Virus record (IMG/VR): IMGVR_UViG_3300010354_011858
Location: 1-64,000 of that record
Strand: one strand, 5' to 3'
Length of the DNA: 64,000 bases
Source: a virus
Shown here piece after piece: positions 2,529-39,680 of the stretch (position 1 is the stretch's first letter; every line of letters starts with the position of its first letter). The notes under the pieces were generated by a model that searched no databases, had not been told where the DNA came from, and was given only the letters and a program-made list of their open reading frames with translations. Made by a program: the position numbers and the translations under genes.

Positions 2529-2540
2529 CCGGCCTGCCGG

Positions 2541-4013: not shown

Positions 4014-4215
4014 TACCCCGGACCTTATCCCATTCGTCTAGAGCATCATCCCAACGCCCGGTACGGATGCCCTGGGCTAGGGCATCACCTGCTTTCCATA
4101 ATCTTTCAATCTCATCTGCCGTATCGAACATCAAAATTTCCCATTCCCTATTATCGGTTGGCAATTCTTGAATAACATATTTACGAAGTAACTTGGGGAT
4201 ATTCTCTGTTGTCAT
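4006..4215 (-). CDS. Small helical hypothetical protein
   Basis: This 69-residue acidic protein is predicted helical (MTTENIPKLLRKYVIQELP...). Its ATG overlaps the stop of the P450 gene upstream (TAATG), so the two are translationally coupled. I see no redox motif, so it is not a ferredoxin partner for the P450. Function unknown. Confidence 0.6.
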   Translation of the reverse strand: MTTENIPKLLRKYVIQELPTDNREWEILMFDTADEIERLWKAGDALAQGIRTGRWDDALDEWDKVRGNG

Positions 4216-5309
4216 TATTCAAACCTTAGTGGTAATTTTTTCGGTCCACGGACCTGGCCGACGCTCCATTCTACCTCACCGTCAAGAGAAAACTTCGGGT
4301 GCTTTTTGATAAATTCCTGGATGGCGACTTTCAATTCTAACTTACCCAGGTGAGCGCCAAGACAACGGTGAATACCCAGTCCAAAAGCGATGTGCTTGTT
4401 ATTTTTCCTATCGATAATAAACTCTTCGGGGTTCTCGAAGTGGTCAGGGTCACGATTTGCAGCGTTTAGCGGAATCAGGATCCACTGATTCTTCTTCATT
4501 TCGTATCCATGGAAGTTATAGTCTTCTTTTACTAACCGTGCTGTCGATACACCAGAGTGCATTCTTAATAACTCTTCTACCGCCGAATCAATGAGCTCAG
4601 GGTTATCTTGAAGTTTCTGTAGGTCATCCGGATGTGTAGCCAAATAGTGCAAACTATTGCCTATCGTGTACCAAGTTGTGTCAATGCTACCAATTGTCAG
4701 GAGCATTATCATACCCTGCAATTGCTCTCTTGAATAAGATCCGGCATTAATTAAGAAAGTTAATAAATTATCACCAGGGACATGGTTGTCAATTTGCTGA
4801 CCAACGTAGTCCATATAGACCATGATCTTCTCAAGGCTCTTCTCCGGTTCTAAATTGATATTCTCAAAGATGTCCGGGACCGCCGAACTAAAGAAGTCTG
4901 GATCGAATCCAAGCATGCCTGACATGGATTGTAGGGCGACATACAGACCGTAATCTGAGCCATCCGTGCCATCCCATGACTGACATATCCCTCTCAGTCG
5001 ATCTTCTAGTTTCTCCACCTCTTTGAAAGAGAATGGAGGCTGAACACGCTGTCTTGCCTCAAAGTGATAAGGAGGATCAGCGGTAATAGGGGGTGCACCA
5101 CCGCCAGGCATGTCAGGCGGAAGATCATTGCTTACCATGACACCACGATTACTAAAATGATCAGTGTCAAGCAAGATCTCTTTTATATATTCATATGTTA
5201 AAGGCATCCATGTGCCCCCATAGTTTTCTGTAAAACCCATGGGGTGGAAATCCTGCCAGTATTGTCTTATATTTTTATTAAAGTCAGGATTTGCGTGATC
5301 GAATGCCAT
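4215..5309 (-). CDS. Cytochrome P450 monooxygenase (P450-1)
   Basis: This is a soluble bacterial-type P450 of 364 residues, slightly shorter than the usual 400 or so. The heme-binding loop FGLGIHRCLG is canonical, with the thiolate Cys316. The ExxR motif is present (EELLR), and the I-helix segment TIGSIDTTW keeps the acidic-alcohol pair (Asp-Thr) needed for oxygen activation. No ferredoxin or reductase is visible nearby, so electrons would have to come from the host. The gene ends in a TAATG overlap with its downstream neighbour. Its base composition is less AT-rich than P450-2 and P450-3, suggesting a separate origin. Substrate unknown. Confidence 0.93.
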   Translation of the reverse strand: MAFDHANPDFNKNIRQYWQDFHPMGFTENYGGTWMPLTYEYIKEILLDTDHFSNRGVMVSNDLPPDMPGGGAPPITADPPYHFEARQRVQPPFSFKEVEKLEDRLRGICQSWDGTDGSDYGLYVALQSMSGMLGFDPDFFSSAVPDIFENINLEPEKSLEKIMVYMDYVGQQIDNHVPGDNLLTFLINAGSYSREQLQGMIMLLTIGSIDTTWYTIGNSLHYLATHPDDLQKLQDNPELIDSAVEELLRMHSGVSTARLVKEDYNFHGYEMKKNQWILIPLNAANRDPDHFENPEEFIIDRKNNKHIAFGLGIHRCLGAHLGKLELKVAIQEFIKKHPKFSLDGEVEWSVGQVRGPKKLPLRFE

Positions 5310-5313: not shown

Positions 5314-5958
5314 CTATTCTACATCATCAATGGCTAAATTAACCTTATTAGGCGACATGGGCGTAAGAAATTTATTCTTATATCTCTCGTCCTCATCAAG
5401 AATCATCAGGGCAATTGTAGAATATCCAATAATATCAATTAATGTATCAACAACTGTCTCACCGCCAACAGAGTTAGCCTGAATTGCTGATCTTAAATCA
5501 TAATTAGACTTCTCTATTAGATTATTAAGTCTGGCAATCTTATCAAACATTCTAACTATGATGCCGATTAGACCAAAACGCATAATATTCTCAGGACCAT
5601 AATCTTTTTGTTTTCTAATTAAAATATCGCTGATATAGTTCCAGTCAATATAATAATACATATCTAACTCTTCAATAATATATATTGCATAGCCGGCTAT
5701 ATCAAAAAATAGGGGATTGTCATCAACAGAGTTGATTATATTTTTAGTTAATGGCTTACTAAGCCCCTCTGTCTGATCTACAAGATAGTTGACCATCGCA
5801 TTAATCTGCTCAACTGGATATACATCTGTCATGTGAGTTGGATTGCTATACCACTGATAGTAATGGTCATAGATTTCCTTAACTTGCTGTTGGCAAACGT
5901 CTTCCCAGAAATAATCAACGTGTGAACTTCTCATATCAATATCTTCCATCATATCCAT
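5314..5958 (-). CDS. DUF1599 / nucleotide-modification-associated domain protein
   Basis: The C-terminal half (about residues 110-190) matches the pattern of the DUF1599 (Nmad1) family: KQKDYGPENIMRFG, then VRMFDKIARLNNL, then DTLIDIIGYSTIA. That family occurs in phages and is linked by genome context to modified-nucleotide metabolism. The N-terminal half is rich in Tyr and acidic residues and is unassigned. The start overlaps the upstream gene by 23 bases; an in-frame Met three codons later is also possible. Confidence 0.65.
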   Translation of the reverse strand: MDMMEDIDMRSSHVDYFWEDVCQQQVKEIYDHYYQWYSNPTHMTDVYPVEQINAMVNYLVDQTEGLSKPLTKNIINSVDDNPLFFDIAGYAIYIIEELDMYYYIDWNYISDILIRKQKDYGPENIMRFGLIGIIVRMFDKIARLNNLIEKSNYDLRSAIQANSVGGETVVDTLIDIIGYSTIALMILDEDERYKNKFLTPMSPNKVNLAIDDVE

Positions 5959-6457
5959 GTTTATTAATTCTATCTACCGAACTTTCAAAAGTTGAATACC
6001 CCTGGACCCCGTAAGATTCAACAATTCTATTGTAGAAATTAAATATACATATAACTGCAATTGCATCTTTTACCTCGTCTTTCGTCCAACCATCACTGTA
6101 GCATGTTTGAATATCATCATCACTAACAGATGGGGGATTTTGTGTAATTTTTTCTGCTAATTTAAATATAGAATAATATTTATTAGAATATGATTCTATT
6201 GTAAATTTATTATCAAAATTATTACTTAATGATTTAGTAAATTCTAAATGAGATTTATAACAAAAATCACAGTTATTTAATTTAGAAGTATATGTAGCAA
6301 TTATTTCTCTATCTAGTGGTGTCAAATAAGACTCTTCACGAAGAATTTCTTGGGCCATCGACAAAGCATTTGAATACATTTTTTTTCTATCATTAAATAT
6401 ATCGATAATACTAGATGGATTTCTATTGTTTGATAATAGACGACTATCTCTAGTCAC
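5936..6457 (-). CDS. AhpD-like / carboxymuconolactone decarboxylase family protein
   Basis: The motif NCDFCYKSH (Cys63, Cys66, His70), preceded by TPLDREIIATYTSKL, is the redox-active CxxCxxxH signature of AhpD-like peroxidase-related proteins. These are all-helical. The family includes alkylhydroperoxide reductases and proteins of unknown role. The 173-residue length fits. It may protect against peroxides generated by uncoupled P450 turnover, but that link is only context. It overlaps both neighbours by a few bases, so it belongs to the same leftward operon. Confidence 0.75.
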   Translation of the reverse strand: MTRDSRLLSNNRNPSSIIDIFNDRKKMYSNALSMAQEILREESYLTPLDREIIATYTSKLNNCDFCYKSHLEFTKSLSNNFDNKFTIESYSNKYYSIFKLAEKITQNPPSVSDDDIQTCYSDGWTKDEVKDAIAVICIFNFYNRIVESYGVQGYSTFESSVDRINKHGYDGRY

Positions 6458-7584: not shown

Positions 7585-8322
7585 CTATAATGATCCTCCA
7601 CGATCAATATTAAATATTGCACCAGTAATATTCTTACATGGATCACTAGCAATATATAAATACATTTCAGCAACATCTTGAACTGGGATTAATTCATCTA
7701 TAAATCTAGTTAAGAGATTGAAGTCGGCATTATCAGGGAGTTTTTGTTTATCAATAAAAGGAGTTTGTACTCCACCAGGCGATACTGCATTAACTCTTAT
7801 ATTATTCTTTTTATACTCATATGCTAGTTCTTTTGTTAATCCAACAACGCCTGCTTTACTAGCAACATACGCAGCACTCCATGGCAAAACAGTATTATAT
7901 GCTAATGAAGTCGTATTGATAATACATCCATAATTTTGATTTATCATAAATGGAAGAGTATACCTAGATGTATAAAAAGAACCATTTAAGTTAGTAGATA
8001 TAATATTATCAAATTCATGTGGAGTTTGAAGATGAGTGTGCTGCATGGAATTAATTCCTGCTGTATTGATGAGTACATCAACTTTACCCATCTCTGCAAC
8101 TGAGAAGCGGATTGAATCTTCTACTGCAACATAGTCCTTCACATCGCACTTTACTGCGAATGAATTGGGTCCGGCAAGTCTTACTGTTTCTTGTGCGTTC
8201 TCAATCGTTTTGCTTAAACAAGCAACGGTCGCACCAGCATTTGCAAATTTTATAGCAACCTCACGACCAATACCTGTCCCTGATCCAGAAATAATGACAG
8301 CAGATCCAGCAAAATCACGCAT
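7585..8322 (-). CDS. Short-chain dehydrogenase/reductase (SDR)
   Basis: This is a classical NAD(P)-dependent SDR of 245 residues, the usual length. The cofactor motif GSGTGIG is at residues 13-19, NTAG at 86-89, the catalytic Ser139, and YVASK with Tyr152 and Lys156. The PGGVQTPF segment follows. It probably interconverts an alcohol and a ketone. Its place in the block with three P450s and a CoA ligase suggests it works on the product of a hydroxylation, as SDRs do in lipid and terpenoid pathways. FabG-like and steroid dehydrogenases share these motifs, so the substrate cannot be read from the sequence. Confidence 0.9.
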   Translation of the reverse strand: MRDFAGSAVIISGSGTGIGREVAIKFANAGATVACLSKTIENAQETVRLAGPNSFAVKCDVKDYVAVEDSIRFSVAEMGKVDVLINTAGINSMQHTHLQTPHEFDNIISTNLNGSFYTSRYTLPFMINQNYGCIINTTSLAYNTVLPWSAAYVASKAGVVGLTKELAYEYKKNNIRVNAVSPGGVQTPFIDKQKLPDNADFNLLTRFIDELIPVQDVAEMYLYIASDPCKNITGAIFNIDRGGSL

Positions 8323-9180: not shown

Positions 9181-10323
9181 TTATTTAATATATTGACCGT
9201 ATATTGATTCAATTAGAGAGCCAGTTAAATTTCTTTCTTCTCTATATTGAATAGAATCGATACTAATATTTTTATAGTTATCAATCATATAATTTAAGAA
9301 GCAATTTAATTGTAAAATTGCTGTCTGAAAGCCGATGCATCTATACATGCCGTGACCAAATACTAAATTTGTTTTTTTATAATTTCTATATATATTAAAA
9401 TCTTTAGTGTGTTTACCAAATTTTGTTTCATCAAAATTAGCACTGCCTAATAAAAATGCAACAATATCACCCTTCTTAATATTTTTATTATGCAGTATGT
9501 GATCCGATGATGCAACTCTAATCAGATTAGTTTGTATAAAACTATATCTAAGTGTTTCTTGTATAAAATTATTTGATAGTTTTTTATTTTTAATGACATC
9601 AAGAAAATAATTATTATATTGATATATATTATTTAAAAAATTTGGGAATGTACCAGTTAATGAGCTTGATCCACCAAGCATCATTCCCATACAAAATGAT
9701 ATTGCTACATCCCTATCTCTACAGTTTGATACAAGAGGAGGAGGATTATTAATTATAAACTTATATGCGTTTTTGCATATATCTATTCTTTCTTGAATAC
9801 TTGCCCGTTTCATTAAACTACTGGTAATCTGGAAAACATCGTCGGCCATCTCGTGATCGTATCCCATGAGATCGCATATTGTTAACAGTGGTATTCGATT
9901 TGTTACTGTTTTTACTAAGTCCACGGGGCCAATATTTTCTATATTAGAAAAGATTTTATTAATATTTAAATTAATTTTTGACTCTAAATCACCGGCTATT
10001 GCGGAATGGTAGATATCTAATAATTTTTTTCTATGAATTGTATACTCAGGTGGCAACTGTATCTGAAAGAACTGTCTGTCCTTGTCAGATAGTAGTTCCG
10101 GATTATTTGTCATACATGTTAAATCTCTTATAACAATTGAATCGGTGGTATCATAAGTGTATAATTCATGGTTAGCCAAGCCATTAATTACATCTTGATA
10201 TCTACTAATAATCCAAGCTCTGTGATGATCGCTCCAATACACTGGCTCATATTTTCTAAGATCAGAATAAAGATTTAATAAATCTTCCTTCGGTGTTTTG
10301 TTAGTAAAGTTAAAATTTATCAT
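9181..10323 (-). CDS. Atypical cytochrome P450 (P450-2)
   Basis: This 380-residue P450-like protein has the heme loop FGHGMYRCIG with Cys329, and ExxR as ETLR. Two catalytic features are altered. The residue normally His or Arg two before the Cys is Tyr, and the I-helix reads GGSSSLTG, without the acidic-alcohol pair. It may be an altered monooxygenase, a peroxygenase or a substrate-presenting P450. The start is placed at ATG 10323, just after the stop of P450-3, with AAAGAG upstream; ATG 10341 is an alternative. The coding sequence is about 30 percent GC, with runs of Asn, Ile and Lys. Confidence 0.85.
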   Translation of the reverse strand: MINFNFTNKTPKEDLLNLYSDLRKYEPVYWSDHHRAWIISRYQDVINGLANHELYTYDTTDSIVIRDLTCMTNNPELLSDKDRQFFQIQLPPEYTIHRKKLLDIYHSAIAGDLESKINLNINKIFSNIENIGPVDLVKTVTNRIPLLTICDLMGYDHEMADDVFQITSSLMKRASIQERIDICKNAYKFIINNPPPLVSNCRDRDVAISFCMGMMLGGSSSLTGTFPNFLNNIYQYNNYFLDVIKNKKLSNNFIQETLRYSFIQTNLIRVASSDHILHNKNIKKGDIVAFLLGSANFDETKFGKHTKDFNIYRNYKKTNLVFGHGMYRCIGFQTAILQLNCFLNYMIDNYKNISIDSIQYREERNLTGSLIESIYGQYIK

Positions 10324-10327
10324 ATAT

Positions 10328-11467
10328 TTACTCTTTATCATTCCCTAGAAATCTCATATGTAGACTATCCCACATCATACCTGAGAGGTCGGCTTTGTTT
10401 CTTAGGACACCGGAAATTATTTCAAAGTTTGGAGATATTTCAACAATTGATTCGAGTATAGATGTCATTTCTAATCTAGCAAGCCTCTGGCCGGGACATG
10501 TGTGTGGACCGTATCCAAAAGCAAAGTTATGCTTATTAATCTCTCTATTAATTAAAAACTCATCAGGACTATCTTTTATAAATTCTTCATCAAATCCAGC
10601 AGATGCAGTTAAAAATAACACGGTATCTCCTGCTCGTATAAATTTATTATTTAATACATGATCAACTGTTGCTGTTCTTATAACAAATTGGGATAAATAT
10701 CTATGTCTTAGTGATTCTTCTACAAAAAGAGGAATAAGTTCGTTATTATTTAATATTCTATAATATTCTTCTGGATGTTTCTTGCAGTTATAGACTAGAT
10801 TTGCTAGTTCAGCAGAAATAGTTTCATAGCCGGCAATTGCAATTGATGTACAGAGTGTGCCAATAACTTTTTTTGTCAAATTTACATTTGAAAACTCTTT
10901 TTCTGCAATTTCTATAACCAAGCCTGGTGGATTCTTATAAAAAAATCCGGCCAAGTTCATTACAGCTTCTTTTTGCTCCTCCTTTGAGGAGAGATCAAAT
11001 AATTTCTTTGCTTGTTCTTTTATAAACTCTAAATGATCTTTATCTATTCCAAATATATCAAATATTACATATATAGGAAATAACATAAATAAACTATTTA
11101 TTATATCAATATCTTTATTTAAAATAGATTTTAATTCATTTGAAAAATTATTTTTTATTTTTAATTTTAATTCTTCACTAACCTGGCTTGAAATAATTCT
11201 ATTAATAATTTTTCTAAATTCAGTATGGGCCGGCGGGTCTAGTTCATAGAATGGTAGATTGTCATATAGTTCAGACCTTTTTGTTTCAAGGGTAGTTCCA
11301 TAATTTGCAGTATATTTACTATAGTCACGCAAACAAGATACAACATCTGTATATTTAGATACTATCCAAATTTTATGTTCATCATTCCAATGACATCCAT
11401 CTAAATGTCTTAGAAGTTTGTATTTTTTATAATTATCAAATGTAACTTCATATGGGTCGTAAATCAT
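10328..11467 (-). CDS. Cytochrome P450 (P450-3)
   Basis: This P450 of 379 residues has intact signatures: FGYGPHTCPG with Cys324, ESLR for ExxR, and the canonical I-helix AGYETI. It should therefore activate oxygen normally if given a redox partner. It resembles P450-2 over the N-terminal region (W-x-D/E-x-H-x-x-W-I-x-S-x-Y), and both are extremely AT-rich, pointing to an old duplication or joint acquisition. The start at 11467 overlaps the end of the CoA ligase gene by 20 bases; the longer in-frame start at 11509 has no better ribosome site. Confidence 0.92.
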   Translation of the reverse strand: MIYDPYEVTFDNYKKYKLLRHLDGCHWNDEHKIWIVSKYTDVVSCLRDYSKYTANYGTTLETKRSELYDNLPFYELDPPAHTEFRKIINRIISSQVSEELKLKIKNNFSNELKSILNKDIDIINSLFMLFPIYVIFDIFGIDKDHLEFIKEQAKKLFDLSSKEEQKEAVMNLAGFFYKNPPGLVIEIAEKEFSNVNLTKKVIGTLCTSIAIAGYETISAELANLVYNCKKHPEEYYRILNNNELIPLFVEESLRHRYLSQFVIRTATVDHVLNNKFIRAGDTVLFLTASAGFDEEFIKDSPDEFLINREINKHNFAFGYGPHTCPGQRLARLEMTSILESIVEISPNFEIISGVLRNKADLSGMMWDSLHMRFLGNDKE

Positions 11468-12989
11468 ACAATTCTTTAATTTTTTTATAATCAATTTTAC
11501 CAATTTCATTCCTTGGTATTAAATTTGATTTAATAAATTCTTTTGGAATCTTATAGTCAGCAAGATAATTTAAACAGAATTTTTTTAAACTAGCAAAGTC
11601 TATCTCTGTATCACAATTTATAACACAAGTTACTTGCTGACCCCATCTATCGTGGTGTTTACCTATTACAACTGCATCAGTGACTCCTGGGTACGACTTT
11701 ATTACTTCTTCAACTTCCTCTGGGTAAACCTTTTCTCCGCCAGTATTAATGCAATTGTTGTCTCTTCCAAGCAGAACAAGTTCACCAGATTCTGTTATAT
11801 ACCCAAGATCACCAGGTATACACCATCTCTTATCGTCAATTTCTTTAAATACCATATTCGTCTTTAGCGAATCACTGTAATAGCCAATTGGTAAATGACC
11901 GGTTTTAGCAATTTTACCAATAATGTTACAATCAACCTTATTATAATTATCGTCTACAATAATAGTATCTTCTGGAGATACAAAGGATGAGTCATTCACT
12001 TTAGCAACAACACCGCCTATTTCTGATCCGCCATATACATCCATTACCGAAATATGTGGAAGCAATTCAATTAATTTCTTTTTGTTTATTTCTGATAAAA
12101 ATGCTCCACCGTTATTAATAGAAAACAAATTTTTAAGATTATATGTATTCTTGCTTAATTCATCAATTAATGTTATTGCCATTCCGTCGCCAATTATACT
12201 CATTGAGTTTGCTTCGGATTTCTCTGCAAGGGATAAGCAGTGGTAGCCAGTAAATGTTTTATTTGTATACATGATATATGTAGCACCTAATACTAAAGCA
12301 CTACCCATTACCCATTGACCAGATGCATGCATCATTGGTGTTGTACACATTATTTTTGGAATAAATTGTTTGTTTAAACATTCAAGAGACAATTCTTTTA
12401 CTGAGTCAATTGGAGCATTATTTCTACCCTTATTCATAGCTGCAAGAATGAGATCTTCTTGCCTCCATACAACACCCTTTGGCATGCCAGTCGTACCACC
12501 GGTATATGTTATATATATGTCATCTCCTGATCTTTTTTCAAAGTTTCTTTGGCATCCAAATGATCTGACTGAGTTTTCATAGATCGACTCAAACTTACCA
12601 ACCCATTTTAATTTTGGTAAGTTTGAATATATTGAATACACATCATCATAAAATTCATCAGATACTAGTGTTGCAACAACATTAGCATTGTTATATAAAT
12701 ATAATAATTCATTTTTAGAATATCTATAATTTATATTAATGGGTACTGCTCGTATTTTCAAGCAAGCATAAAATGCATAAATCCATTCAATTCTATTTCT
12801 TGAATGAATAGCAATATGATCACCATAGCCAAATCCACAACTTTTTAAAAAGTTTGCAAGCCTTGTTGCTTCATTATCGATATATCCATAGGTATAAACA
12901 CAATCATCGGTGATAACAGCAATTCGATCACCAAATGTATCTGCATGGGATTCTAAAATATCCGCTAAATTAATTGAACCGTCACTCAT
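11448..12989 (-). CDS. Acyl-CoA synthetase-type AMP-forming ligase
   Basis: This 513-residue enzyme of the ANL superfamily activates a carboxylate with ATP, usually to the CoA thioester. All main motifs are intact: the P-loop YTGGTTGMPKG (162-172), YGGSEIGG, GDLGY, GRDNNCINTGGEKVYP, and the catalytic Lys498 in NEIGKIDYK. The N-terminal and C-terminal domains are both complete. It is the first gene of a leftward operon with P450-3 and P450-2. It is closest in character to fatty-acid/sterol-side-chain CoA ligases (FadD type), but substrate choice cannot be deduced. Confidence 0.92.
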   Translation of the reverse strand: MSDGSINLADILESHADTFGDRIAVITDDCVYTYGYIDNEATRLANFLKSCGFGYGDHIAIHSRNRIEWIYAFYACLKIRAVPININYRYSKNELLYLYNNANVVATLVSDEFYDDVYSIYSNLPKLKWVGKFESIYENSVRSFGCQRNFEKRSGDDIYITYTGGTTGMPKGVVWRQEDLILAAMNKGRNNAPIDSVKELSLECLNKQFIPKIMCTTPMMHASGQWVMGSALVLGATYIMYTNKTFTGYHCLSLAEKSEANSMSIIGDGMAITLIDELSKNTYNLKNLFSINNGGAFLSEINKKKLIELLPHISVMDVYGGSEIGGVVAKVNDSSFVSPEDTIIVDDNYNKVDCNIIGKIAKTGHLPIGYYSDSLKTNMVFKEIDDKRWCIPGDLGYITESGELVLLGRDNNCINTGGEKVYPEEVEEVIKSYPGVTDAVVIGKHHDRWGQQVTCVINCDTEIDFASLKKFCLNYLADYKIPKEFIKSNLIPRNEIGKIDYKKIKELYDLRPI

Positions 12990-30048: not shown

Positions 30049-30873
30049 ATGCCCTTTGTAAACAGTGCACGAGGAGTATTCGGAGTTCAGTCTGGCGTAA
30101 CTTCAGCCGGTCTGATATTAGATCTAATTACTGGTGGTACAATTACAACTTCTGGTGACTACCGTATACATACTTTCACCACATCTGGTACTTTTAGTAC
30201 ATATACTACGCTTCCTGTTGAATATCTTGTTGTTGGTGGTGGTGGCAATGGATATGTACACCCAGATTATAGCGGTGGAGGGGGTGGCGGAGGTCAGGTT
30301 TCTACTGGCAATGCAAACATAACAAACACTGGCGCTACGATCGTTGTCGGAGGGCCAGCCACACCAAGTTCGTTATCAGCACCAGGCTCCTTTCAGGTAA
30401 CCGCTACTGCCGGTGGCAATGCCCCTCCCCCTGGTAGAGATGCTCGTGCTGGTGGAACTTCTGGTAATGGCAATATTGGTAATGATTATTCAAACTCCGG
30501 TTATACAGGTGGTGGAGGAGGCGGAGCAGGCCAAGCTGTTGGGCCTTCTACGACAAATAGAGATGGTGGTCAAGGTGTACAGTCTAATATAACAGGAGCA
30601 AGTGTTTGGTATGGTGGTGGTGGTGCTTCTGGTGCTGTGAATAGACCACCGTATAATACTGGGCCAAAGCATTCACCAACACCTGTTGCTGGTTGGACAT
30701 ATGGTTTTGGCATAGGCGGTCTTGGTGGTGGAGGCAATGCACCAGATAACCCTGGCGTTTATAACGGTAAACCAAATACTGGTGGTGGAGGCGCAGGTGG
30801 GTCTGTCTATGGTTATAATACTACATACACAGGTGGACCTGGTGTAGTTATTGTGAGGTATAAGTATAAATGA
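30049..30873 (+). CDS. Glycine-rich tail adhesin
   Basis: This 274-residue protein opens with YRIHTFTTSGTFSTYTTLPVEYLVVGGGGNG. Many Gly-rich loops follow (GGGGGGGQ, GGGGGAG, GGGGASGA) to the end, the signature of the glycine-rich domain in phage adhesins, where polyglycine II helices carry variable receptor loops. It probably sits at the fibre tip. It overlaps the next gene by four bases. Confidence 0.75.
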   Translation: MPFVNSARGVFGVQSGVTSAGLILDLITGGTITTSGDYRIHTFTTSGTFSTYTTLPVEYLVVGGGGNGYVHPDYSGGGGGGGQVSTGNANITNTGATIVVGGPATPSSLSAPGSFQVTATAGGNAPPPGRDARAGGTSGNGNIGNDYSNSGYTGGGGGGAGQAVGPSTTNRDGGQGVQSNITGASVWYGGGGASGAVNRPPYNTGPKHSPTPVAGWTYGFGIGGLGGGGNAPDNPGVYNGKPNTGGGGAGGSVYGYNTTYTGGPGVVIVRYKYK

Positions 30874-31817
30874 TTGTAGATGATCCTTCAAATAGACCGC
30901 CGATGAATCTGTATTTCACTGGCCATAACATCATGTCACCATCTAGAAAAATACAAAATGCTGTCTGGAATAGTGAAAAAAAAGCATGGATGCACAGATG
31001 GTGTGTTGAAGATATTGATGGAAGCGGTAACTTTTTTGAAAAAGAAAACACTAGGAATAGTGGTATCTTTATTTTGTATAAAGCACAACCAGTCGAATCT
31101 GCATTAATGCACAGTGATTTATTTCCAAACTTTAAAGTATTATGCAATGATTATATTGGTAAATATATAAGCGTCCATCCCGACTGGGAAGATGGATATA
31201 TTGATCCGATCTTTAGACCAGGTGGATTTGGTGCACCATATGGTGCGGAAATTCATAATGAAAATCATAATTTATCTCATCAAAAATGGAGAGTCGTATA
31301 TGATGGTGCACCGTTTTTCTATATTGCATTTACTAATTTAGTAGATTTAAATAAACTGATTGAATATCCAATAAATACTGATCGATATATTCAAGAGACA
31401 GAAAAGTATGAAATATCTCTAGAACTAGAGAATCTTTATATATCGCAACATCCATTTTATGCCGCAAGAACACTTGGTGAACTTTTTAAGTTAATAATGG
31501 ACTGGGATATCTGTTATAATGAATTTAATAATAGAGAAAACATTGCAGTTCTTTGTCATAATGTTATGAGAGCAGTAAATATGCCTCAAAATGTTTATGA
31601 TTCAATATATAACTCACTGCCTGATACTTGTATTGCAAAATATTTAAAAGGAATAGAAAATTTTGATCAATATGGGGATAAGGGTGAAACACCAAACTGT
31701 GCCATAGAATGGTTTAAAGAGAAATATTGGGATCTTCAATCTACACTATCCAACTCGCCTAATATAGAAAATACTGACGAGTTCTACTACAGAAAAAGAG
31801 TTCTATTTACTAGATAA
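30870..31817 (+). CDS. Fibre-associated family protein, copy 1
   Basis: This 315-residue protein has a C-terminal region (ISQHPFYAARTLGELFKLIMDWDICY, ENIAVLCHNVMRAVNMPQNVYDSI) clearly shared with the next gene and with the product of 60259-61368. The N-terminal half contains VHPDWEDGYIDPIFRPGG and YDGAPFFYIAF, also shared with copy 2. Each copy follows an adhesin-type gene, so it may be a fibre chaperone or attachment protein. The family itself is not recognised. Confidence 0.65.
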   Translation: MIVDDPSNRPPMNLYFTGHNIMSPSRKIQNAVWNSEKKAWMHRWCVEDIDGSGNFFEKENTRNSGIFILYKAQPVESALMHSDLFPNFKVLCNDYIGKYISVHPDWEDGYIDPIFRPGGFGAPYGAEIHNENHNLSHQKWRVVYDGAPFFYIAFTNLVDLNKLIEYPINTDRYIQETEKYEISLELENLYISQHPFYAARTLGELFKLIMDWDICYNEFNNRENIAVLCHNVMRAVNMPQNVYDSIYNSLPDTCIAKYLKGIENFDQYGDKGETPNCAIEWFKEKYWDLQSTLSNSPNIENTDEFYYRKRVLFTR

Positions 31818-31818: not shown

Positions 31819-32988
31819 ATGTCATTAGCTGTAAGACTTGATAGCCATAATAGAGTTGTACAATGTATTGAAATACCCGATGACCAAGATGGTGACGCAT
31901 CAAATTTTATTAATTTTACTCTTAACTTGAAGGGCACATGGCTATCTGTATCTAGTTGTCATATAGAACACAATCAAAATATATCTGTTGGGTTCACATA
32001 TCTCCCAGATAAAAATAAGTTTATAACTCAACAACCATTTGATGACTGGATTCTTGATGAAAATAATTGCTGGATACCGCCAATTAAAAATAATCTTAGA
32101 AATATGAGTTATGGTTATGAAAACGAGATCTCCGATGGACCGTCATTTTTTTGGAATCAAGAAAAAAAGATGTGGGGACATTCGGGGGTTGAATATAATA
32201 TTTTAAATCAAAATAATAAAGATAATGGAGTATATTTTATATCTAAAGCAATACAGGTTACTAATCAAGAGTACGCTTCAGATTTTGTGAAAGAACTAAA
32301 TGTGCAATGCAATGGTCGTGCATATAAGTATGTTGATGTACATCCCGACTGGGATCAGAACTTCATCTACCCAGTATTTAGAGAAACATTTGCTACTAAA
32401 TATGGAGTAGTTGACTCAAATCCAGATAGATTTCATTGTTATGAAAATTATATAATGCCATTTGATGGTGCCCCCTATTTTTTCATTCATTATTCTAACT
32501 TGTGTGATTTGACTAAAAAAAGAAATGTTAAAATTAAACACGAAGCTGTGCAAGATCATCTTTATGAAATTTCAGTAGATTTTGAAAGAGAATTCATCTG
32601 CCAGCATCCATATATTGCTGCAAGAACTCTGAGTGAGCTTTTCAAGTTAATAATGGATTGGGACATTTGTTATCATATATTTAATAATAGAGAAAACACA
32701 GCTATTTTATGTCATAACATTATGTCAGGAATTCAGATGCCAAATGATATATGTGATCTTATATACCATTCTACGCCTCCATCAATTATAGAAAAATATT
32801 TAAGAGGAGATCCTGATTATCTTAATATTGGCGAAAGACCCATTGAAGATGAAAGAGTAATGAGATGGTTTGCAGAGAAGTATTGGGATCTTAGATATTT
32901 AAAGTATCATGAAACAGTTAATATTATAGAATTAAATGAGGATCACTATATTCCTTTTTCTCTTATGAATAATAATGCTTCTTTGTGA
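31819..32988 (+). CDS. Fibre-associated family protein, copy 2
   Basis: This 389-residue protein is a paralogue of the previous gene product. It shares VHPDWDQNFIYPVF, FDGAPYFFIHYSNLCDL and QHPYIAARTLSELFKLIMDW, plus an additional N-terminal domain of about 90 residues. It starts one base after copy 1 stops. Its 3' end overlaps the convergent halogenase gene by 43 bases. Confidence 0.65.
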   Translation: MSLAVRLDSHNRVVQCIEIPDDQDGDASNFINFTLNLKGTWLSVSSCHIEHNQNISVGFTYLPDKNKFITQQPFDDWILDENNCWIPPIKNNLRNMSYGYENEISDGPSFFWNQEKKMWGHSGVEYNILNQNNKDNGVYFISKAIQVTNQEYASDFVKELNVQCNGRAYKYVDVHPDWDQNFIYPVFRETFATKYGVVDSNPDRFHCYENYIMPFDGAPYFFIHYSNLCDLTKKRNVKIKHEAVQDHLYEISVDFEREFICQHPYIAARTLSELFKLIMDWDICYHIFNNRENTAILCHNIMSGIQMPNDICDLIYHSTPPSIIEKYLRGDPDYLNIGERPIEDERVMRWFAEKYWDLRYLKYHETVNIIELNEDHYIPFSLMNNNASL

Positions 32989-34388
32989 GAAATAAAACTT
33001 TCTGTGCTCTCATAAATTGAATATGAATTAATTATTCGATTAGCATAATCTTGATATTGTATAGGTATTTTATTGTACTCATTTCGAATACTCTCGGTAT
33101 TAAACATATCAAGGCCAGACATTATTTGTATAAAATTCCAGTCCCAAAATAAGCAATAATCACTGTTTTGATTGAAATCATCATGCCTTGGTAATCGATG
33201 GACCCAAACTTTTAACATTTCCTCTAAGTCATTTGGTAATTTAATAGATGCACTATCTATCCAAAATTTTGTGTTTTGTTTTTTAGTTAAATAATGAACT
33301 ATTAAAAAATCTCGTATATTGGAGATTATATTTGAATAAATTTTATTATAAGAATTTTGGTTCCATTTATCTGTTAATAGATTATTTGCTAAAATAAAAC
33401 ACTGTTGAATAGTGGAACTGATTGCAGTAGCCTCTAAAGGCTCTACAAAACTAGCACTAAGACCCACAGCACAGCAGTTATTAATCCAAACTTTATCTAA
33501 TGTTCCTGGTGTAAATGTAAACTCTTTGCCAAAAGTTATTTTCCTTTTCAAATATTTTTGAATTTCTTCTTTAGCTATATCATGTGATATGTAATTCTTG
33601 TCAAAAATATAGCCATTACCATATCTACCCCATACTGGGGTTTTGAACATCCATCCGTAATCCATAGCGGTCGATAAAGTTGAGATATTATAGGTCTCTT
33701 CTTCTTCTGTTTGAAAAACAACAGCTGCATTTACCTTAAGAAAGTCCTCAAATGAAACATACTTTGCTCCCAGTTTCGAAATTAATTTTCTAGAAAATCC
33801 AGTGCAATCTATATAAAAATCGTATTTATATTCTTTTTTTTCACCTAAAATAGAGTTTATATATCCATTTGAATTTAATTTAATATCTAATATTAGATCT
33901 TCATATAGTATGATATTATTTTTAATAGCAATTTTTTTTAAAAAATCAATAAATTTAAATGTATTAAAATTATATTGATTGAAAATTATTTCTTCATTTT
34001 TTAATTTAGAATATGGAATAAGATTCTGTTTAGTCCATTTTGGATTAATATAATTTGAATCATATGAAATTTGTCTTCCATATATATAATTATATTGTCC
34101 AAGAGTATAAGTAAAAGGATCACATACATAATTAATGTAATCTTTATTAGACCAATTTTTAAATTTAATTGATGATTTAAAAGTGGCATCGCACTCGTTT
34201 ATCATATCTTCTTGGCTTATTTCTGCACACTTCATAAATTCAAAAAAATGCTCAGTTGCAGCTTCGCCAACACCAATTGTCTGTACTTGATTTGAATATA
34301 CTAGGTCAACAGAATGACTAGTCATTTTTTTAATAATTATGGAGGCTACTAGTCCAGCAGTGCCTCCTCCTACTACTAATATTTTCAT
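32946..34388 (-). CDS. FAD-dependent halogenase (tryptophan-halogenase-like)
   Basis: This 480-residue flavin enzyme would halogenate an organic substrate using FADH2, oxygen and a halide. It has the FAD motif GGGTAG at the N-terminus, GVGEAATEHF, and Lys71 in ATFK, probably the catalytic lysine. FVEPLEATAI (312-321) supplies the family's glutamate. The WxWxIP motif is present in altered form as WMFKTP (244-249). Flavin halogenases that deviate here are known, including a viral one from a cyanophage. It needs a flavin reductase, not seen here. Its start overlaps the stop of the upstream oxygenase gene by four bases. Confidence 0.85.
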   Translation of the reverse strand: MKILVVGGGTAGLVASIIIKKMTSHSVDLVYSNQVQTIGVGEAATEHFFEFMKCAEISQEDMINECDATFKSSIKFKNWSNKDYINYVCDPFTYTLGQYNYIYGRQISYDSNYINPKWTKQNLIPYSKLKNEEIIFNQYNFNTFKFIDFLKKIAIKNNIILYEDLILDIKLNSNGYINSILGEKKEYKYDFYIDCTGFSRKLISKLGAKYVSFEDFLKVNAAVVFQTEEEETYNISTLSTAMDYGWMFKTPVWGRYGNGYIFDKNYISHDIAKEEIQKYLKRKITFGKEFTFTPGTLDKVWINNCCAVGLSASFVEPLEATAISSTIQQCFILANNLLTDKWNQNSYNKIYSNIISNIRDFLIVHYLTKKQNTKFWIDSASIKLPNDLEEMLKVWVHRLPRHDDFNQNSDYCLFWDWNFIQIMSGLDMFNTESIRNEYNKIPIQYQDYANRIINSYSIYESTESFISHKEALLFIREKGI

Positions 34389-34987
34389 GATGTATAAATA
34401 ATATATTTTTTATCTTTTTTATTTTTCTGGGGGAATCCGATGAACTCTCTTTCATCATATTTTAAATTTGAAAATTTACCATATTTATTGACATAGTGTA
34501 GAAATACTTGAATGTGGTATTCATTATCTAAACAGTTTAGAGTATTTCTCCAATGAGATAGTTCGCATCCCTTGTACACAGCCATATCACCGCTACATAG
34601 ATATATCGGTTCCCCGTCAATGAAAAGTTCCCAGGGGTCACCAGGGTAATTATAATCTAGAGCCAAAGTCGCAGAGATCTCACAAGATTCTCGGTCCAAG
34701 TGTCTTCTGAGATATTGCCCATTGCGGTATATCCTATAATATGAATATGTAGGATATAATTCTAATCCAGTATGTTGTTCAATAACAGGCTGCATTTTTA
34801 ATAATAATGACTCCATCAGGGGATCAGCGTAAGATGAATGCGCATCAGCTACCTGGGGGTCTCCCGGTGAAAAATTAGATAATTCATCAAAAATGGCATA
34901 TTGACTAACTAACTGTACAAAATCTTTATCTAGAGCTGATTTTATAATCGTATATTTATTTTTTTCAAAGTTGTTTATTGTATCCAT
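34385..34987 (-). CDS. Fe(II)/2-oxoglutarate oxygenase-like protein (1)
   Basis: This 200-residue protein has a facial-triad pattern: His96 and Asp98 in RRHLDRE, and a distal His145 in ELSHWR followed by basic residues. Upstream, YPTYSYYRIYRNGQYL matches the strand before the first His in prolyl-hydroxylase-like enzymes. It probably hydroxylates a protein side chain or small molecule. It overlaps both the halogenase and the second oxygenase gene. Confidence 0.75.
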   Translation of the reverse strand: MDTINNFEKNKYTIIKSALDKDFVQLVSQYAIFDELSNFSPGDPQVADAHSSYADPLMESLLLKMQPVIEQHTGLELYPTYSYYRIYRNGQYLRRHLDRESCEISATLALDYNYPGDPWELFIDGEPIYLCSGDMAVYKGCELSHWRNTLNCLDNEYHIQVFLHYVNKYGKFSNLKYDEREFIGFPQKNKKDKKYIIYTS

Positions 34988-35607
34988 CTATCTTTTATCC
35001 AAGTTACTATTGCATATTTTGTACCACTTACAACAGGATGCGCAATATGTCTATAAGCGTAATTAGATGGGAAAAGAAGCAACATTCCTGGCTCTGGTTT
35101 AATTTTTATACCAAAATTAACAAATTCAATTTCCCCGCCGATATAATCATTATTTAAATATACTATTGCTGAAATTGATCTTCCATCCGATGTTGAGCCG
35201 TCATAGTGAGCGTCATATTTTTGACCGGATGAATACTTCAAAACATTGTAATATTCATGCATAAATTCGCCGTAAATGGAATACTTCTCGGTGTATGGAG
35301 TAAGTGCTGCAGTTAATAAAAAATACATTTGATTATGTAAATTTTTTGCCAACTGATTGCCGTATATATCACCACATGTTGTTAAACATAGATCATAATT
35401 TGTTCTTACACTTTGATATTGACCATCGCCAAATGTAGATGCTTTTGACCATTTTAAATCAGATTCTATATTAGAGCACTCAAGTTCAAGAGCTTCAATT
35501 GTTTCTGCCGGATTTGGCCAAGCATTTTCAAATATATCTATACAACCAGCAACAGTTGTATCAGGTATTAATCTTCCTTGGAAGATGCCCATTGTAAATT
35601 TATTCAT
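34975..35607 (-). CDS. Fe(II)/2-oxoglutarate oxygenase, prolyl-4-hydroxylase type (2)
   Basis: This 210-residue protein has HYDGST (His134, Asp136), IVYLNNDYIGGEIEF, PEPGMLLLFPS, a distal His190 and Lys197 in SGTKYAIVTWI for the 2-oxoglutarate carboxylate. All prolyl-4-hydroxylase-type signatures are intact. It is the first gene of the leftward three-gene operon with its own extended -10 promoter. Possible targets are a virion protein, a halogenated product or a host protein. Confidence 0.85.
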   Translation of the reverse strand: MNKFTMGIFQGRLIPDTTVAGCIDIFENAWPNPAETIEALELECSNIESDLKWSKASTFGDGQYQSVRTNYDLCLTTCGDIYGNQLAKNLHNQMYFLLTAALTPYTEKYSIYGEFMHEYYNVLKYSSGQKYDAHYDGSTSDGRSISAIVYLNNDYIGGEIEFVNFGIKIKPEPGMLLLFPSNYAYRHIAHPVVSGTKYAIVTWIKDRWIQ

Positions 35608-35627
35608 AGGTCTCGCTTTCCACAGAT

Positions 35628-35638
35628 ATTATACCTCA
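35628..35638 (-). promoter_or_regulatory. Extended -10 promoter of the halogenase operon
   Basis: Minus-strand TGAGGTATAAT ends 20 bases before the ATG at 35607. The same 11-mer occurs at 61551. A rightward TATAAT at 35689-35694, twelve bases before the ATG at 35707, makes this a divergent promoter region. Confidence 0.5.
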
Positions 35639-35706
35639 TATGATAGAGAGTGTTGGGTTAATTCTTATCGTTTTAGCTTGAAATAACTTATAATATAGTT
35701 TGGACT

Positions 35707-37104
35707 ATGTTTAGAAACAAATTCAAACTTATAAGACTTCTTCCCGTGACTCTTTGGATTCTGATGTGGCCAATAGGCTCTACAAGAGTTCAAGCATCAG
35801 AAGTTCCTGGGCTTATGTATGAGACATATGAATCTTTTGGTGGATCACCCGAAATACCCGGCCCAGAGTCAACAGTTCTATCGTCTGGTGTTGTGTCTGG
35901 AATTGATTTCAACTGGGGAGGGGGTGTCATTCTTGATTCTGGTCGCTGGGATGGCGTGATTGTTAAGTTTGAAGGATGGATCTTACCACCCGAACAGTTG
36001 ACATATTATGTATGCGCTTATACAGATGATGGTTTTCAACTATTCATTGATGGTCAACTTGTTATTCCCGACTGGTGGGACAGGGGGCCGAGTTGTGGAA
36101 ATACGGCAGATATAGACTTCTCTGACGGTCAACCAAAGCAGTTAACTGCTTACTACTACGAAAATGGCGGTGGTGCTGTCGCACAGTTGATGTACTTTAC
36201 AGGTGATGGTATCTGGCAGGTTATACCAGATAGTTGGTATACAACTACTGAGCCGGTCACAACTACGACAACCACCACAGAGCCAGAACAGACAACCACC
36301 ACACAGCCAGAAGAAACAACTACTACTACGCAACCAGAAGAAACAACGACGACTACTGAACCTGAGCAAACAACTACTACAACGGAGCCTGAGACAACTA
36401 CAACACCTGCCCCCGCTACAACTCAACCACCACCCCCGCCTGCACCAGAACCAGACCCAACGCCCAGCCCCGAGCCAGATCCTGAACCCGCTCCTGAACC
36501 GACACCGGAACCTGAGCCGGAGCCTACCCCTGAACCAGAACCCACACCTGAACCTACCCCTGAACCAACACCAGAACCAGAGCCTGAACAGCCCTCAGAG
36601 ACCCCTGAGGAGCCTTCTGAGCCTTCTATAGAAGAGCCAGAGCCTTCGACACCCCCTGAAGAGCCTACAGAGCCTGAAGAACCCGTGGAGGAGCCGGCTG
36701 AGGAGTTAACCCCCGAACCAGAGGCGGAACTGAGCACTGAAGAAATTGTGTCTGAAATTGAAACAATTGAAGTTAATAATTTAACAACAGAACAAATTAA
36801 TCAAGTATTTAGCACTGAAGTTCTTGAGCAGTTGTCCGATGATCAGATAGAAGAATTGATTTCCTCAATCGAAGTTGACGACCTGTCAGATGAACAGGCT
36901 GAAGCCCTGGCAGAGCAACTATCTGCTGCTCCAGAAAATGTAAAGAAGGAATTTGAAAGTCAAATAAATATCTTTGGCGGTCAATTCGATTCATATGTAC
37001 CAACAGGATCTGTAATAACAGTTGGTCAAAGAAGAGTGATAGTCGCAGTAGCAGCAATCACAATGATTGCTCCTGCTCCTGTCATGTCTTCAAGGAGAAA
37101 ATAA
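35707..37104 (+). CDS. Secreted PA14-domain surface protein with Thr and Pro/Glu repeats
   Basis: A signal peptide (about residues 1-30) precedes a PA14-like carbohydrate-binding domain (about 32-160; YTDDGFQLFIDGQLVIPDWW). A Thr-rich segment of TTTTTEPEQ repeats and a long Pro-Glu repeat to about residue 345 follow. Next comes an acidic helical stretch with repeated LSDEQ-like motifs, and last a hydrophobic helix with a basic end. The layout is that of a wall-spanning surface protein rather than a virion protein. It may alter the infected cell surface. Confidence 0.7.
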   Translation: MFRNKFKLIRLLPVTLWILMWPIGSTRVQASEVPGLMYETYESFGGSPEIPGPESTVLSSGVVSGIDFNWGGGVILDSGRWDGVIVKFEGWILPPEQLTYYVCAYTDDGFQLFIDGQLVIPDWWDRGPSCGNTADIDFSDGQPKQLTAYYYENGGGAVAQLMYFTGDGIWQVIPDSWYTTTEPVTTTTTTTEPEQTTTTQPEETTTTTQPEETTTTTEPEQTTTTTEPETTTTPAPATTQPPPPPAPEPDPTPSPEPDPEPAPEPTPEPEPEPTPEPEPTPEPTPEPTPEPEPEQPSETPEEPSEPSIEEPEPSTPPEEPTEPEEPVEEPAEELTPEPEAELSTEEIVSEIETIEVNNLTTEQINQVFSTEVLEQLSDDQIEELISSIEVDDLSDEQAEALAEQLSAAPENVKKEFESQINIFGGQFDSYVPTGSVITVGQRRVIVAVAAITMIAPAPVMSSRRK

Positions 37105-37289: not shown

Positions 37290-37530
37290 ATTACAAACGA
37301 TCTCACAGAGAATTGCCGCAGTTTTTGTGGTGTCATCGTTGCCCATTATCGGTGGGTCATCAGTTATTGGTGGTATTCCTGTTTGGAAGGCCGCACTTCT
37401 TGCTGGGTTTACGGCATGCACAGATGTTTTCATCAAACTTGCTAAGGCATCCCTTGATGGAGAGTTAACCATGGAAGAAATCAACGAGGCTTTCTTAGGA
37501 GGAAAGGCTGCTGATAAAGAGGTGAAATAG
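37282..37530 (+). CDS. Holin-like protein
   Basis: This 82-residue protein has two hydrophobic stretches (about 9-30 and 36-50) followed by LAKASLDGELTMEEINEAF. That ending is characteristic of small phage holins of the r1t/phi-29-like kind in Gram-positive phages. GGAGG precedes the ATG. With the previous gene it may form a holin pair releasing the endolysin. Confidence 0.65.
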   Translation: MNKLQTISQRIAAVFVVSSLPIIGGSSVIGGIPVWKAALLAGFTACTDVFIKLAKASLDGELTMEEINEAFLGGKAADKEVK

Positions 37531-38813
37531 TGAGAATAACTAAATATATTCCTCTTGTTATTTTACCGTTTCTTTTAGTTGGAAGTATTAAATCAGCTGA
37601 CGCAGATACGGTCTCCAATGCAGACTTTGAGTCTGGAAACTTTACCGGATGGGAGAAAGGCGCACAGACCGGGAATATGGCTCCAACGATTACTGGAAGT
37701 GGAACCGGTGTTTCTATAATAAATGGAACTGTAACCTTTAATGCACCGCCAGGTAACCAAGTAGGAACACCTGGTTCTCAATACTATCAACCCGCAACTC
37801 CGGCTGCAGTCTGGAAGTTCTCCCCGTATGGCTCATATGCTGCTGCTCTTCAGCCGGCTGGTCAGGCAAATTTTAATACCGCTACCTCAGCACTTGGTTT
37901 ATCAAGCGCTGAAAATACATCATTAAGAGGTGTTATGACATCTCAGGCATCAGCAAGCAAATGGGGACAAGGCAACCCGACTGATGCTGCTTGGATTACT
38001 AGAAACGTAACATTAAGTGCTGGCGTGACATACACAATGTCATGGAACTATATTGGAACTGATTATGTTCCTTTTAATGATGGATCTATAACGTCATTGA
38101 CTCCTATTGATGCAACGTCATCTGCAACTATTACTGTTAATAATCAGGTGCAAAGGTATGCTCTTCTTGGCTTCACAAATCCCGGAACGGGCGACTATTC
38201 AACAGGAACATATGGCTCTACTGGCTGGCAGGTATCAACATACCAAGTTTCTGCAACAGGTGAGTACAAGCTGGGTTTTGCCGTTTTCAACTTGGATGAT
38301 AACGCCCTATCTCCGGTTCTGCTTGTTGATAGCGAGCCAGGCGGTACTTTGAAGAATGATCAGCAATTTGGTGCTGTCCCACCGAACAACTCTAATGCAC
38401 CGACTGTGCCACCGACCACACAGGCTACTACAACAACAGAAGCACCGACCACAACTACAACTGAACCTGAAGTTACAACAACGACAGAACCGGAAGTTTC
38501 AACAACCGTTCCTGAAACTACAACAACTGTTATAGAAACTACAACCACAGCCCCGGCACCAACTACTGAAGCACCGAGACCGATCTACATACCCTCACCA
38601 GTAGTCACTGTTGAAACAACCACAACAACAATTCCTGATACAACAACGACAATTATTGAAGATACTATCCCAAATGATACTATCCCGATTGATAGTATTC
38701 CAATAAGTGAATTGCCAAAAACCGGATCCAGTAGTCAATTATTTAATATTGGGGCTGGTCTTATTATAATTGGATTATTTATATCTTACATAAGAAAATG
38801 GTTGTATTCCTGA
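37530..38813 (+). CDS. Secreted LPXTG cell-wall-anchored protein
   Basis: This 427-residue protein starts at GTG 37530, coupled to the previous stop. It has a signal peptide (about 1-25), a beta-type domain to about residue 285 (SNADFESGNFTGWEKG, later GWQVSTYQVSATGEYKLGF) resembling bacterial surface adhesion domains, and a Thr-rich TTTTEAP linker. The sorting signal LPKTG at 395-399 is followed by a hydrophobic helix and a basic tail. A host sortase would link it to the peptidoglycan, so it acts on the host surface, not in the virion. It implies a Gram-positive host. Confidence 0.8.
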   Translation: MRITKYIPLVILPFLLVGSIKSADADTVSNADFESGNFTGWEKGAQTGNMAPTITGSGTGVSIINGTVTFNAPPGNQVGTPGSQYYQPATPAAVWKFSPYGSYAAALQPAGQANFNTATSALGLSSAENTSLRGVMTSQASASKWGQGNPTDAAWITRNVTLSAGVTYTMSWNYIGTDYVPFNDGSITSLTPIDATSSATITVNNQVQRYALLGFTNPGTGDYSTGTYGSTGWQVSTYQVSATGEYKLGFAVFNLDDNALSPVLLVDSEPGGTLKNDQQFGAVPPNNSNAPTVPPTTQATTTTEAPTTTTTEPEVTTTTEPEVSTTVPETTTTVIETTTTAPAPTTEAPRPIYIPSPVVTVETTTTTIPDTTTTIIEDTIPNDTIPIDSIPISELPKTGSSSQLFNIGAGLIIIGLFISYIRKWLYS

Positions 38814-38867: not shown

Positions 38868-39680
38868 ATGACTTTACCGTATATGAAACTCGTCGTTCCG
38901 TCTGCTTTGAAGCAGTACAAGAATGGACAACTTGCCGAAAGTGTTCTCGCCAAAGTGAAGACTGGTGGAAGAATGTATGCCCCAGTTGCAGAAGAGTTTA
39001 ACAAGATGTATGACGCAGCTCTTGCAGCTGGGTATAAATTAAGAAATGTTGGGGATTATAGATCATTCGAAGGTCAGCTTCAAATGTTTATGGATCGCTA
39101 CACAACTACAGATCAGGGACGCAAACCGCAGGTTACCCGTCAGTATGAGGGGAAAACCTGGTATTTGAAGCCTGGCAAGGCTCCGTCTGCAGCCCCCGAT
39201 CCGACCGGAGCTAAGGGTTCTAATCATGGTTGGGGTTTAGCAATAGATCTTGGCTATGAAGTTAATGGAAAACTTGTTGCTATGGGTGGCGGATGCTTTG
39301 ATTGGATGTGCGTCAATGCACCCAAGTATGGTTTTTATCTTCAGACCGATAATCGCCAGTCAAAAGAATTTGAAGCATGGCACTGGCAGTATTGTCTTGG
39401 TGATAGCAAGCCTGATGGCAAGGCTTATATTCCGCCCGCAGGCACTCCGCCCGCATCTGCCTCGGCACCTTCTGGTACGCTTGAATTTAAGTATCCTGGC
39501 ACTCCGGTTAAATTAGGTTCTAAGGGCACCGATGTTATGCTCGTTCAGGCCTTGCTTGGTTTGAAGTCTGATGGTGATTTTGGCCCCAAGACTGATGCTG
39601 CTGTTAAGGCATGGCAGACCGCTAATGGTTTGAAGGCTGATGGTGTGATCGGACCCATCACATGGGACAAGATGTTCTGA
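38868..39680 (+). CDS. Endolysin: M15 (VanY-like) peptidase with peptidoglycan-binding domain
   Basis: Residues 40-178 form an M15 L,D-carboxypeptidase domain with the zinc site SNHGWGLAID (His120, Asp127) and EAWHW (Glu169, His172). A Pro/Ala linker leads to a peptidoglycan-binding type 1 domain (about 212-270; GTDVMLVQALLGLKSDGDFGP...). It cleaves peptide bonds in the cell wall at lysis. No signal peptide is seen, so it depends on a holin. Codon use is G/C-rich, like the capsid gene, indicating high expression. Confidence 0.92.
   Translation: MTLPYMKLVVPSALKQYKNGQLAESVLAKVKTGGRMYAPVAEEFNKMYDAALAAGYKLRNVGDYRSFEGQLQMFMDRYTTTDQGRKPQVTRQYEGKTWYLKPGKAPSAAPDPTGAKGSNHGWGLAIDLGYEVNGKLVAMGGGCFDWMCVNAPKYGFYLQTDNRQSKEFEAWHWQYCLGDSKPDGKAYIPPAGTPPASASAPSGTLEFKYPGTPVKLGSKGTDVMLVQALLGLKSDGDFGPKTDAAVKAWQTANGLKADGVIGPITWDKMF

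Follow-up and report, generated by a model that had tools for sequence, protein, structure and literature searches.

A leftward halogenase and oxygenase gene trio beside a glycine-rich tail gene in an IMG/VR virus record: a possible modification set for a tail adhesin

The three-gene unit and its enzymes

The DNA analysed here (the window) covers 64 kb, positions 1 to 64,000, of the 70.3-kb IMG/VR virus record IMGVR_UViG_3300010354_011858, which may be a fragment and in which portal, tape-measure, fibre and VanY-endolysin genes are recognised by Pfam/PHROG matches. The subject is a trio of genes, OXY1, OXY2 and HAL (Table 1), which an earlier note on this DNA had described as a leftward unit of a flavin halogenase and two Fe/2-oxoglutarate (2OG) oxygenases, inserted inverted in the structural genes. 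The coordinates of the three open reading frames (ORFs) were borne out, as were their overlaps of 4 bp (ATGA, HAL/OXY2) and 13 bp (OXY2/OXY1). Rightward genes flank the trio, with the tail fibre and Gly_rich_2 genes on the left and the PA14 and VanY endolysin genes on the right, and the convergent fibre-side ORF F4 shares 43 bp with HAL. Judged from the sequence, the family matches of the trio are far beyond chance.

By family profile and fold HAL is a flavin-dependent halogenase. It matches PF04820 with E 5.2e-80 (270 bits against a cut-off of 21) and phrog_2928 with E 4.8e-92, and its AlphaFold2 (AF2) model has a predicted local distance difference test (pLDDT) score of 94, the best structural matches being AbeH, Xcc4156 and PyrH at Z of about 44. 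The GxGxxG motif is present as GGGTAG at residues 7-12, with G7, G9 and G12 kept in 50/50 aligned viral halogenases. The catalytic K71 and E319, which we take to be the equivalents of K79 and E346 of PrnA, are kept in the same 50. The WxWxIP motif reads WMFKTP in HAL; across the 50 sequences its second W is F in 41 and its I is T in five. This departure makes HAL a weaker claimant to textbook membership, while the fold and the catalytic residues stay. It could also be taken, together with an Ala at position 322 where most of the viral set have Ser, as a sign that the trio consists of decaying or non-functional remnants. That is highly improbable, as there are three full-length ORFs with coupled overlaps, K71 and E319 are invariant and the OXY2 metal triad is kept in 30/30 sequences. 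A Ser at a site in this region has been noted for BrvH and two Xanthomonas enzymes (PMC7336383).

It was found that the Trp4 motif (YYHGxxxYS or the group A form), described as the mark of free-tryptophan halogenases of groups A and B (PMC8269204), is not seen in HAL, whose aligned region is SDYCLFWDWNF. Halogenation of free tryptophan or a simple indole would suit the PF04820 family and the top structural matches, which are tryptophan 5/6/7-halogenases; it is very unlikely in view of the missing motif and the WMFKTP sequence. MibH, which has a lanthipeptide substrate, BrvH, VirX1 and Xcc likewise have no Trp4 and have mostly been described as halogenating substrates other than tryptophan, although tryptophan is a substrate of KrmI, a member of their group (PMC8269204), and the open site of Xcc4156 has been proposed to take peptides (PMC7336383). 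By its sequence, therefore, HAL is not a canonical free-tryptophan halogenase, and that label was rejected. The record, possibly incomplete, gave no match to the flavin reductase family PF01613.

OXY2 has no Pfam match, and in PHROG it falls in phrog_2954, labelled 'ferrochelatase' (E 9.4e-46). Its AF2 model (pLDDT 92.5) matches the prolyl-4-hydroxylase (P4H) of P. putida best (Z 17.1, root-mean-square deviation (rmsd) 2.7 A, 164 residues aligned), followed by the small-molecule enzyme SnoN, practically tied at Z 17.0, and then PHD2. The double-stranded beta-helix fold carries an HxD...H triad (H96, D98 and H145) that is invariant in 30/30 sequences. In Fe/2OG oxygenases the distal His is usually followed, at +10, by a basic residue. 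OXY2 shows no conserved Lys or Arg there, though R147 is invariant in the 30 sequences, and 2OG anchoring may thus differ. The fold is also like that of vCPH of Paramecium bursaria Chlorella virus (5c5t) and of P. putida P4H (4j25); the identity is 12-18%, and OXY2 differs from both in the +10 residue. On the model, OXY2 is predicted to have a prolyl-4-hydroxylase-like fold, with small-molecule 2OG enzymes matching equally well. Since the matches of residues 1-180 are to Fe/2OG oxygenases, prolyl-4-hydroxylases and PHD2 among them, the description of two such oxygenases holds. No ferrochelatase is among the matches listed, which by itself excludes nothing, and the model puts the 'ferrochelatase' label in doubt. 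The labels of phrog_2954, phrog_274 ('DNA endonuclease V') and phrog_1644 ('minor coat protein') are all borne by genes inside oxygenase clusters, and they look doubtful because phrog_2954 has a 2OG-oxygenase fold by model. OXY1 matches PF13640 (E 2.9e-15) and shows both the triad and the basic residue, with HYD at 134 and H187 accompanied by K197.

The unit had further been credited with an extended -10 promoter of its own. An exact TATAAT does lie on the minus strand upstream of OXY1, ending 20 nt before its ATG. The bases preceding it are AGG, not TGN, no -35 is listed, and a scan of the region turned up 25 promoter-like sites, no more than in shuffled sequence (mean 32.4), so this claim finds no support.

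Table 1. Features of the trio, its surroundings and other enzyme genes of the record
Feature	Position	Strand	Evidence or remark
HAL, flavin-dependent halogenase, 480 aa	32946..34388	-	PF04820; AF2 model
OXY2, Fe/2OG-type oxygenase, predicted prolyl-4-hydroxylase-like fold, 200 aa	34385..34987	-	phrog_2954; model
OXY1, Fe/2OG oxygenase, 210 aa, first gene of unit	34975..35607	-	PF13640
Divergent intergenic region, 99 bp	35608..35706	.	TATAAT on minus strand, without a listed -35 or an extended -10
FIB, tail fibre protein, 792 aa	27658..30036	+	phrog_9851 E 1.7e-24; CBM_5_12 repeats E 3e-12
GLY, Gly-rich tail protein, 274 aa, proposed substrate	30049..30873	+	PF21722 E 4.4e-12; phrog_2295 E 1e-21
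F3, orphan protein, 40% identical to F4	30870..31817	+	no Pfam/PHROG match
F4, orphan protein	31819..32988	+	phrog_7759 E 7.3e-10
PA14 protein	35707-37104	+	Pfam
LPKTG-ended protein	37530-38813		PF00746 E 0.023, below cut-off
VanY endolysin	38868-39680	+	Pfam/PHROG
Cytochrome P450 genes (three)	4215-5309, 9181-10341, 10328-11509	-	
Short-chain dehydrogenase/reductase (SDR)	7585-8322	-	
AMP-binding (adenylating) enzyme	11448-12989	-	
CMD-family gene	5936-6457	-	

Relatives and recurrence beside glycine-rich tail genes

Twelve IMG/VR loci at 44-49% identity came from a first scan; a profile scan then returned at least 587 stretches, and the best 80 of these were retained. HAL with both OXY2-like and OXY1-like genes within 3 kb was found in 7/95 loci. 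Close orthologues of all three genes are present in two of the 95 (L018 and L020), HAL and OXY1 in L019; these three loci are the nearest relatives of the trio, and in the halogenase tree HAL groups with L019. Two or more PF04820 matches occur in 25/36 records of at least 25 kb (this record included; fragments counted). Viral halogenases have precedent, and the tailoring-type enzyme classes recur together in other phages. The earlier note had found the unit unfamiliar; as a class it is not, halogenase and 2OG-oxygenase clusters being described in jumbo cyanophages (PMC7824862).

Larger clusters occur in L005, L010 and L031, where four or five halogenases and many 2OG oxygenases (PF13640, PF13759, DUF6445-labelled, phrog_274) are flanked by a tail-fibre assembly chaperone on one side and Gly_rich_2 proteins on the other. 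In L048, L068 and L069 three Gly/Cys-rich proteins of 279 aa (phrog_4205) are accompanied by a tail assembly chaperone, 2OG enzymes, a carbamoyltransferase, a halogenase, an HAD phosphatase and a T4 gp9/10-like protein.

Some further features of these relatives were noted. In L005, L009, L010, L011 and L031 a single region holds an array of four or five flavin halogenases, divergent from one another, together with many genes of 2OG type. Three tandem Gly/Cys/Trp-rich phrog_4205 proteins of about 279 aa adjoin oxygenase/halogenase genes in L048, L049, L052, L068 and L069, and their Cys content is unusual for a virion protein. In L022 (9405-12091), L025 and L041 a single halogenase lies in a replication module between a RuvC-like resolvase and a ferredoxin-family gene, which is a possible built-in electron donor. 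Halogenase relatives with Gly-rich ORFs nearby also occur on contigs labelled as Maricaulis and Verrucomicrobia metagenome-assembled genomes (L136, L141), probably viral contigs binned with bacteria.

GLY is the sole ORF of the record with at least 30% Gly over an 80-aa stretch. In a lineage test, halogenases were collapsed at 60% identity with flanks of at least 4 kb required (11/25 lineages were dropped for short flanks), and a Gly-rich ORF was defined by at least 35% Gly in 80 aa. Such an ORF lies within 10 kb in 7/14 halogenase lineages, whereas 0/37 control segments drawn from those genomes contain one (Fisher p 3e-5), the controls being several segments per genome and not fully independent. 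The distance from the OXY2 homologue to the nearest Gly-rich ORF is 3512 bp in this record, 1537 bp in HTVC033P, 1454 bp in HTVC023P, 997 bp in HTVC008M and 1229 bp in Mosig. For this record and the four Pelagibacter isolates the Fisher-combined rotation p is 0.005; the gene order of HTVC023P was known before the choice, those of the others were not. A co-directional order beside Gly-rich genes was observed in L095, L097, L085, L092 and HTVC033P. The claim of insertion in the structural genes is right as to position and understated, as several unrelated phages have such genes flanking a Gly-rich tail gene.

Cultured phages give comparable arrangements. HTVC008M, a Pelagibacter phage, shows the same layout: an OXY2 homologue and four 2OG/PhyH genes lie inverted between a Gly-rich gene and neck genes, and a halogenase follows 6 kb further along; it differs from the present case in being a T4-like marine phage with more oxygenases and with its halogenase separate, between terminase genes. 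Twelve cyanophage records were hand-picked from 69 with a match and fetched as stretches of 14-21 kb (50 kb for syn9). A Gly-rich ORF (at least 35%) is present in the stretch in 7/12, namely S-SRM01, Sf-CH11, S-WAM1, P-TIM40, Syn10, syn9 and S-H38, of which syn9 and Syn10 are near twins and the ORF of Sf-CH11 belongs to a baseplate gene on the other strand, at a distance of 6 kb. It is not found in the stretches of S-PM2, S-MbCM6, S-SSM6a (28%), S-SCSM2R and P-SSM2. In S-SRM01 the halogenase is immediately upstream of a gene annotated 'adhesin tip complex', and in syn9, Syn10, S-WAM1 and P-TIM40 halogenases come directly after fibre or Gly-rich genes. In syn9, gp41/gp42 come after fibre and Gly-rich genes and before a run of 2OG genes whose last member is an OXY2 homologue, and gp42 matches VirX1 over its full length (530 residues, 1271 bits). 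The virion genes of the window are unlike the T4-like cyanophage set of syn9.

Candidate substrates of the trio

We propose that the trio could serve to modify the tail adhesin of the phage itself, a reading to which we give a probability of about 0.42. Residues of the Gly-rich tail-tip protein GLY, encoded 2 kb away, or of the neighbouring fibre would be hydroxylated by OXY1 and OXY2, and on the same targets HAL would add halogen to aromatic side chains (Tyr, Trp or His) that are exposed. The host would supply FADH2, 2OG, Fe(II), O2 and halide, and the modified protein may differ in stability or in receptor binding. Several observations favour this reading: HAL lacks Trp4, like the peptide halogenase MibH and VirX1; no nonribosomal peptide synthetase (NRPS) condensation domain was found in the record; and halogenase lineages and OXY2 homologues recur near Gly-rich genes, those of HTVC008M, S-SRM01 and syn9 included. 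Protein prolyl hydroxylases among the top fold neighbours of OXY2 point the same way, though tied with small-molecule 2OG enzymes.

Two characterised halogenases are relevant here. VirX1 of cyanophage Syn10 (PDB 6qgm) shares the PF04820 fold with HAL (Z 37.6, rmsd 3.2, 459 aligned), is viral and belongs to the class without the Trp4 motif (PMC8269204), but is only about 20% identical and lies on another branch of the halogenase tree. It was assayed on synthetic substrates, with iodide preferred, and in the table of a 2021 review it is listed without a natural product or pathway (PMC8407142). MibH (5uao), a lanthipeptide Trp halogenase, has the same fold as HAL (Z 39.3) and demonstrates that the family can act on peptides (PMC8269204). 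It differs in its 19% identity and in being a bacterial enzyme of a ribosomally synthesised and post-translationally modified peptide pathway; no leader-peptide system was seen here, and none was sought. An analogy with bacterial TonB/SapC halogenase clusters was dropped, as nothing on point was found in the literature.

Several results weigh against the adhesin as substrate. The contrast in the lineage test shrinks as the threshold is lowered, to 7/14 against 2/37 at 30% Gly and to 8/14 against 5/37 at 25%. Taken alone, this record gives no significant closeness (rotation p 0.12 for OXY2 and 0.09 for HAL), and the results were weak when 25 IMG/VR records were each tested by rotation (p 0.09-1.0); these were the 25 of 36 records with a PF21722 or phrog_4205 match, and partial PF04820 matches (G023, G026) and second overlapping PF21722 pieces (G006, G007) had been dropped. 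The halogenases of S-PM2 and S-MbCM6 lie in hli/psbA/tRNA regions, that of the L022 lineage (five loci) among DNA polymerase, UvsX, RuvC and terminase genes, and that of L062 has SbcC nearby. The trio is AT-rich, with a GC content of 27% for HAL against 40-53% for FIB, GLY, MCP and TMP, and its orientation opposes the late genes, as in unrelated 'moron' cassettes. SnoN, SnoK and OkaE, which act on small molecules, match the OXY2 fold at the same Z, and the three P450 genes and the adenylating enzyme of the record suit small-molecule chemistry.

Part of this evidence would fit a moron-type cassette at a permissive site, whose enzymes would hydroxylate or halogenate a surface protein, a glycan or a defence factor of the host, for instance so as to keep other phages out, with the tail position being incidental. 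The opposite strand between tail and lysis genes, the low GC, the sporadic presence and the placing of other-lineage halogenases in unrelated regions are as such a cassette would have them. We nevertheless regard it as unlikely, since the same enzyme classes recur beside Gly-rich genes in several phage types, also co-directionally. It should be noted that F3 and F4 are likewise AT-rich (GC 31-32%).

Another part bears on small-molecule tailoring, in which the trio would make a halogenated, hydroxylated metabolite (antibiotic, signal or toxin), perhaps with the P450, SDR and adenylating enzymes of the record. Such a role was predicted for the cyanophage cluster with a halogenase, 2OG enzymes and carbamoyltransferases, which Iyer et al. 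2021 interpret as directed at a secondary metabolite or capsule, not an adhesin (PMC7824862), and in the jumbo cyanophage S-SCSM2R genes for glycosyltransferases, a radical SAM enzyme and an amidinotransferase lie close to the halogenase gene. The jumbo cyanophage cluster (S-SSM6a AGH07740, AGH07741) resembles the trio in combining a halogenase with several 2OG oxygenases. It differs in that the carbamoyltransferase C-terminal domain PF16861 has 0 matches in the present record, which may be a fragment, and in that the trio is just three genes, inverted beside fibre genes. The absence from the record of this domain and of the NRPS condensation domain, and the repeated position beside Gly-rich genes, which it leaves unexplained, make small-molecule tailoring somewhat unlikely. 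The F..G.H.C.G motif is kept in two of the P450s and is not matched by the one at 9181-10341. P450 matches occur in 1/46 halogenase-bearing records, this one, and a general link between the trio and P450 genes was accordingly rejected.

Neighbouring genes and implications

Among solved structures no convincing relative of GLY emerged (best E 0.018, for an oxidoreductase), and a gp38 adhesin fold is therefore not claimed for it. The extra N-terminal stretch of about 90 aa in F4 bears a weak likeness to small proteins whose genes follow Gly-rich genes in other phages (hhalign probability 82, E 1e-5), and single-sequence relative searches for F3, F4 and OXY2 returned no loci. The PA14 and LPKTG-ended proteins, between the trio and the endolysin, have long Thr/Pro/Glu linkers. 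The VanY endolysin and the LPKTG-like C-terminal end give a hint, from sequence, of a Gram-positive host. Positions 1-4000 of the window have a GC content of 52%, against 29-46% elsewhere (2-kb windows), and carry a deaminase-like gene (3143-3835); this part may have been acquired recently or may belong to another module.

The literature already describes viral halogenases and halogenase/2OG clusters (PMC7824862, PMC10452541, PMC8407142), whereas no statement tying viral halogenases to tail adhesins was found in the open-licence PubMed Central (PMC) literature. The enzyme parts are known, and it is the setting beside a Gly-rich tail gene that is the new element. More tentatively, many aquatic tailed phages could use flavin halogenases and hydroxylases dedicated to the task to mature their Gly-rich tail-tip adhesins, VirX1-like enzymes being protein halogenases that act on the adjoining adhesin; this broader proposal is doubtful at present. 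The gene order gives a concrete candidate substrate for the viral halogenases of cultured phages such as syn9, Syn10 and HTVC008M. If the proposal is true, virions would carry halogenated and hydroxylated receptor-binding proteins, and halogen chemistry would be used by phages on the very protein that decides host range.

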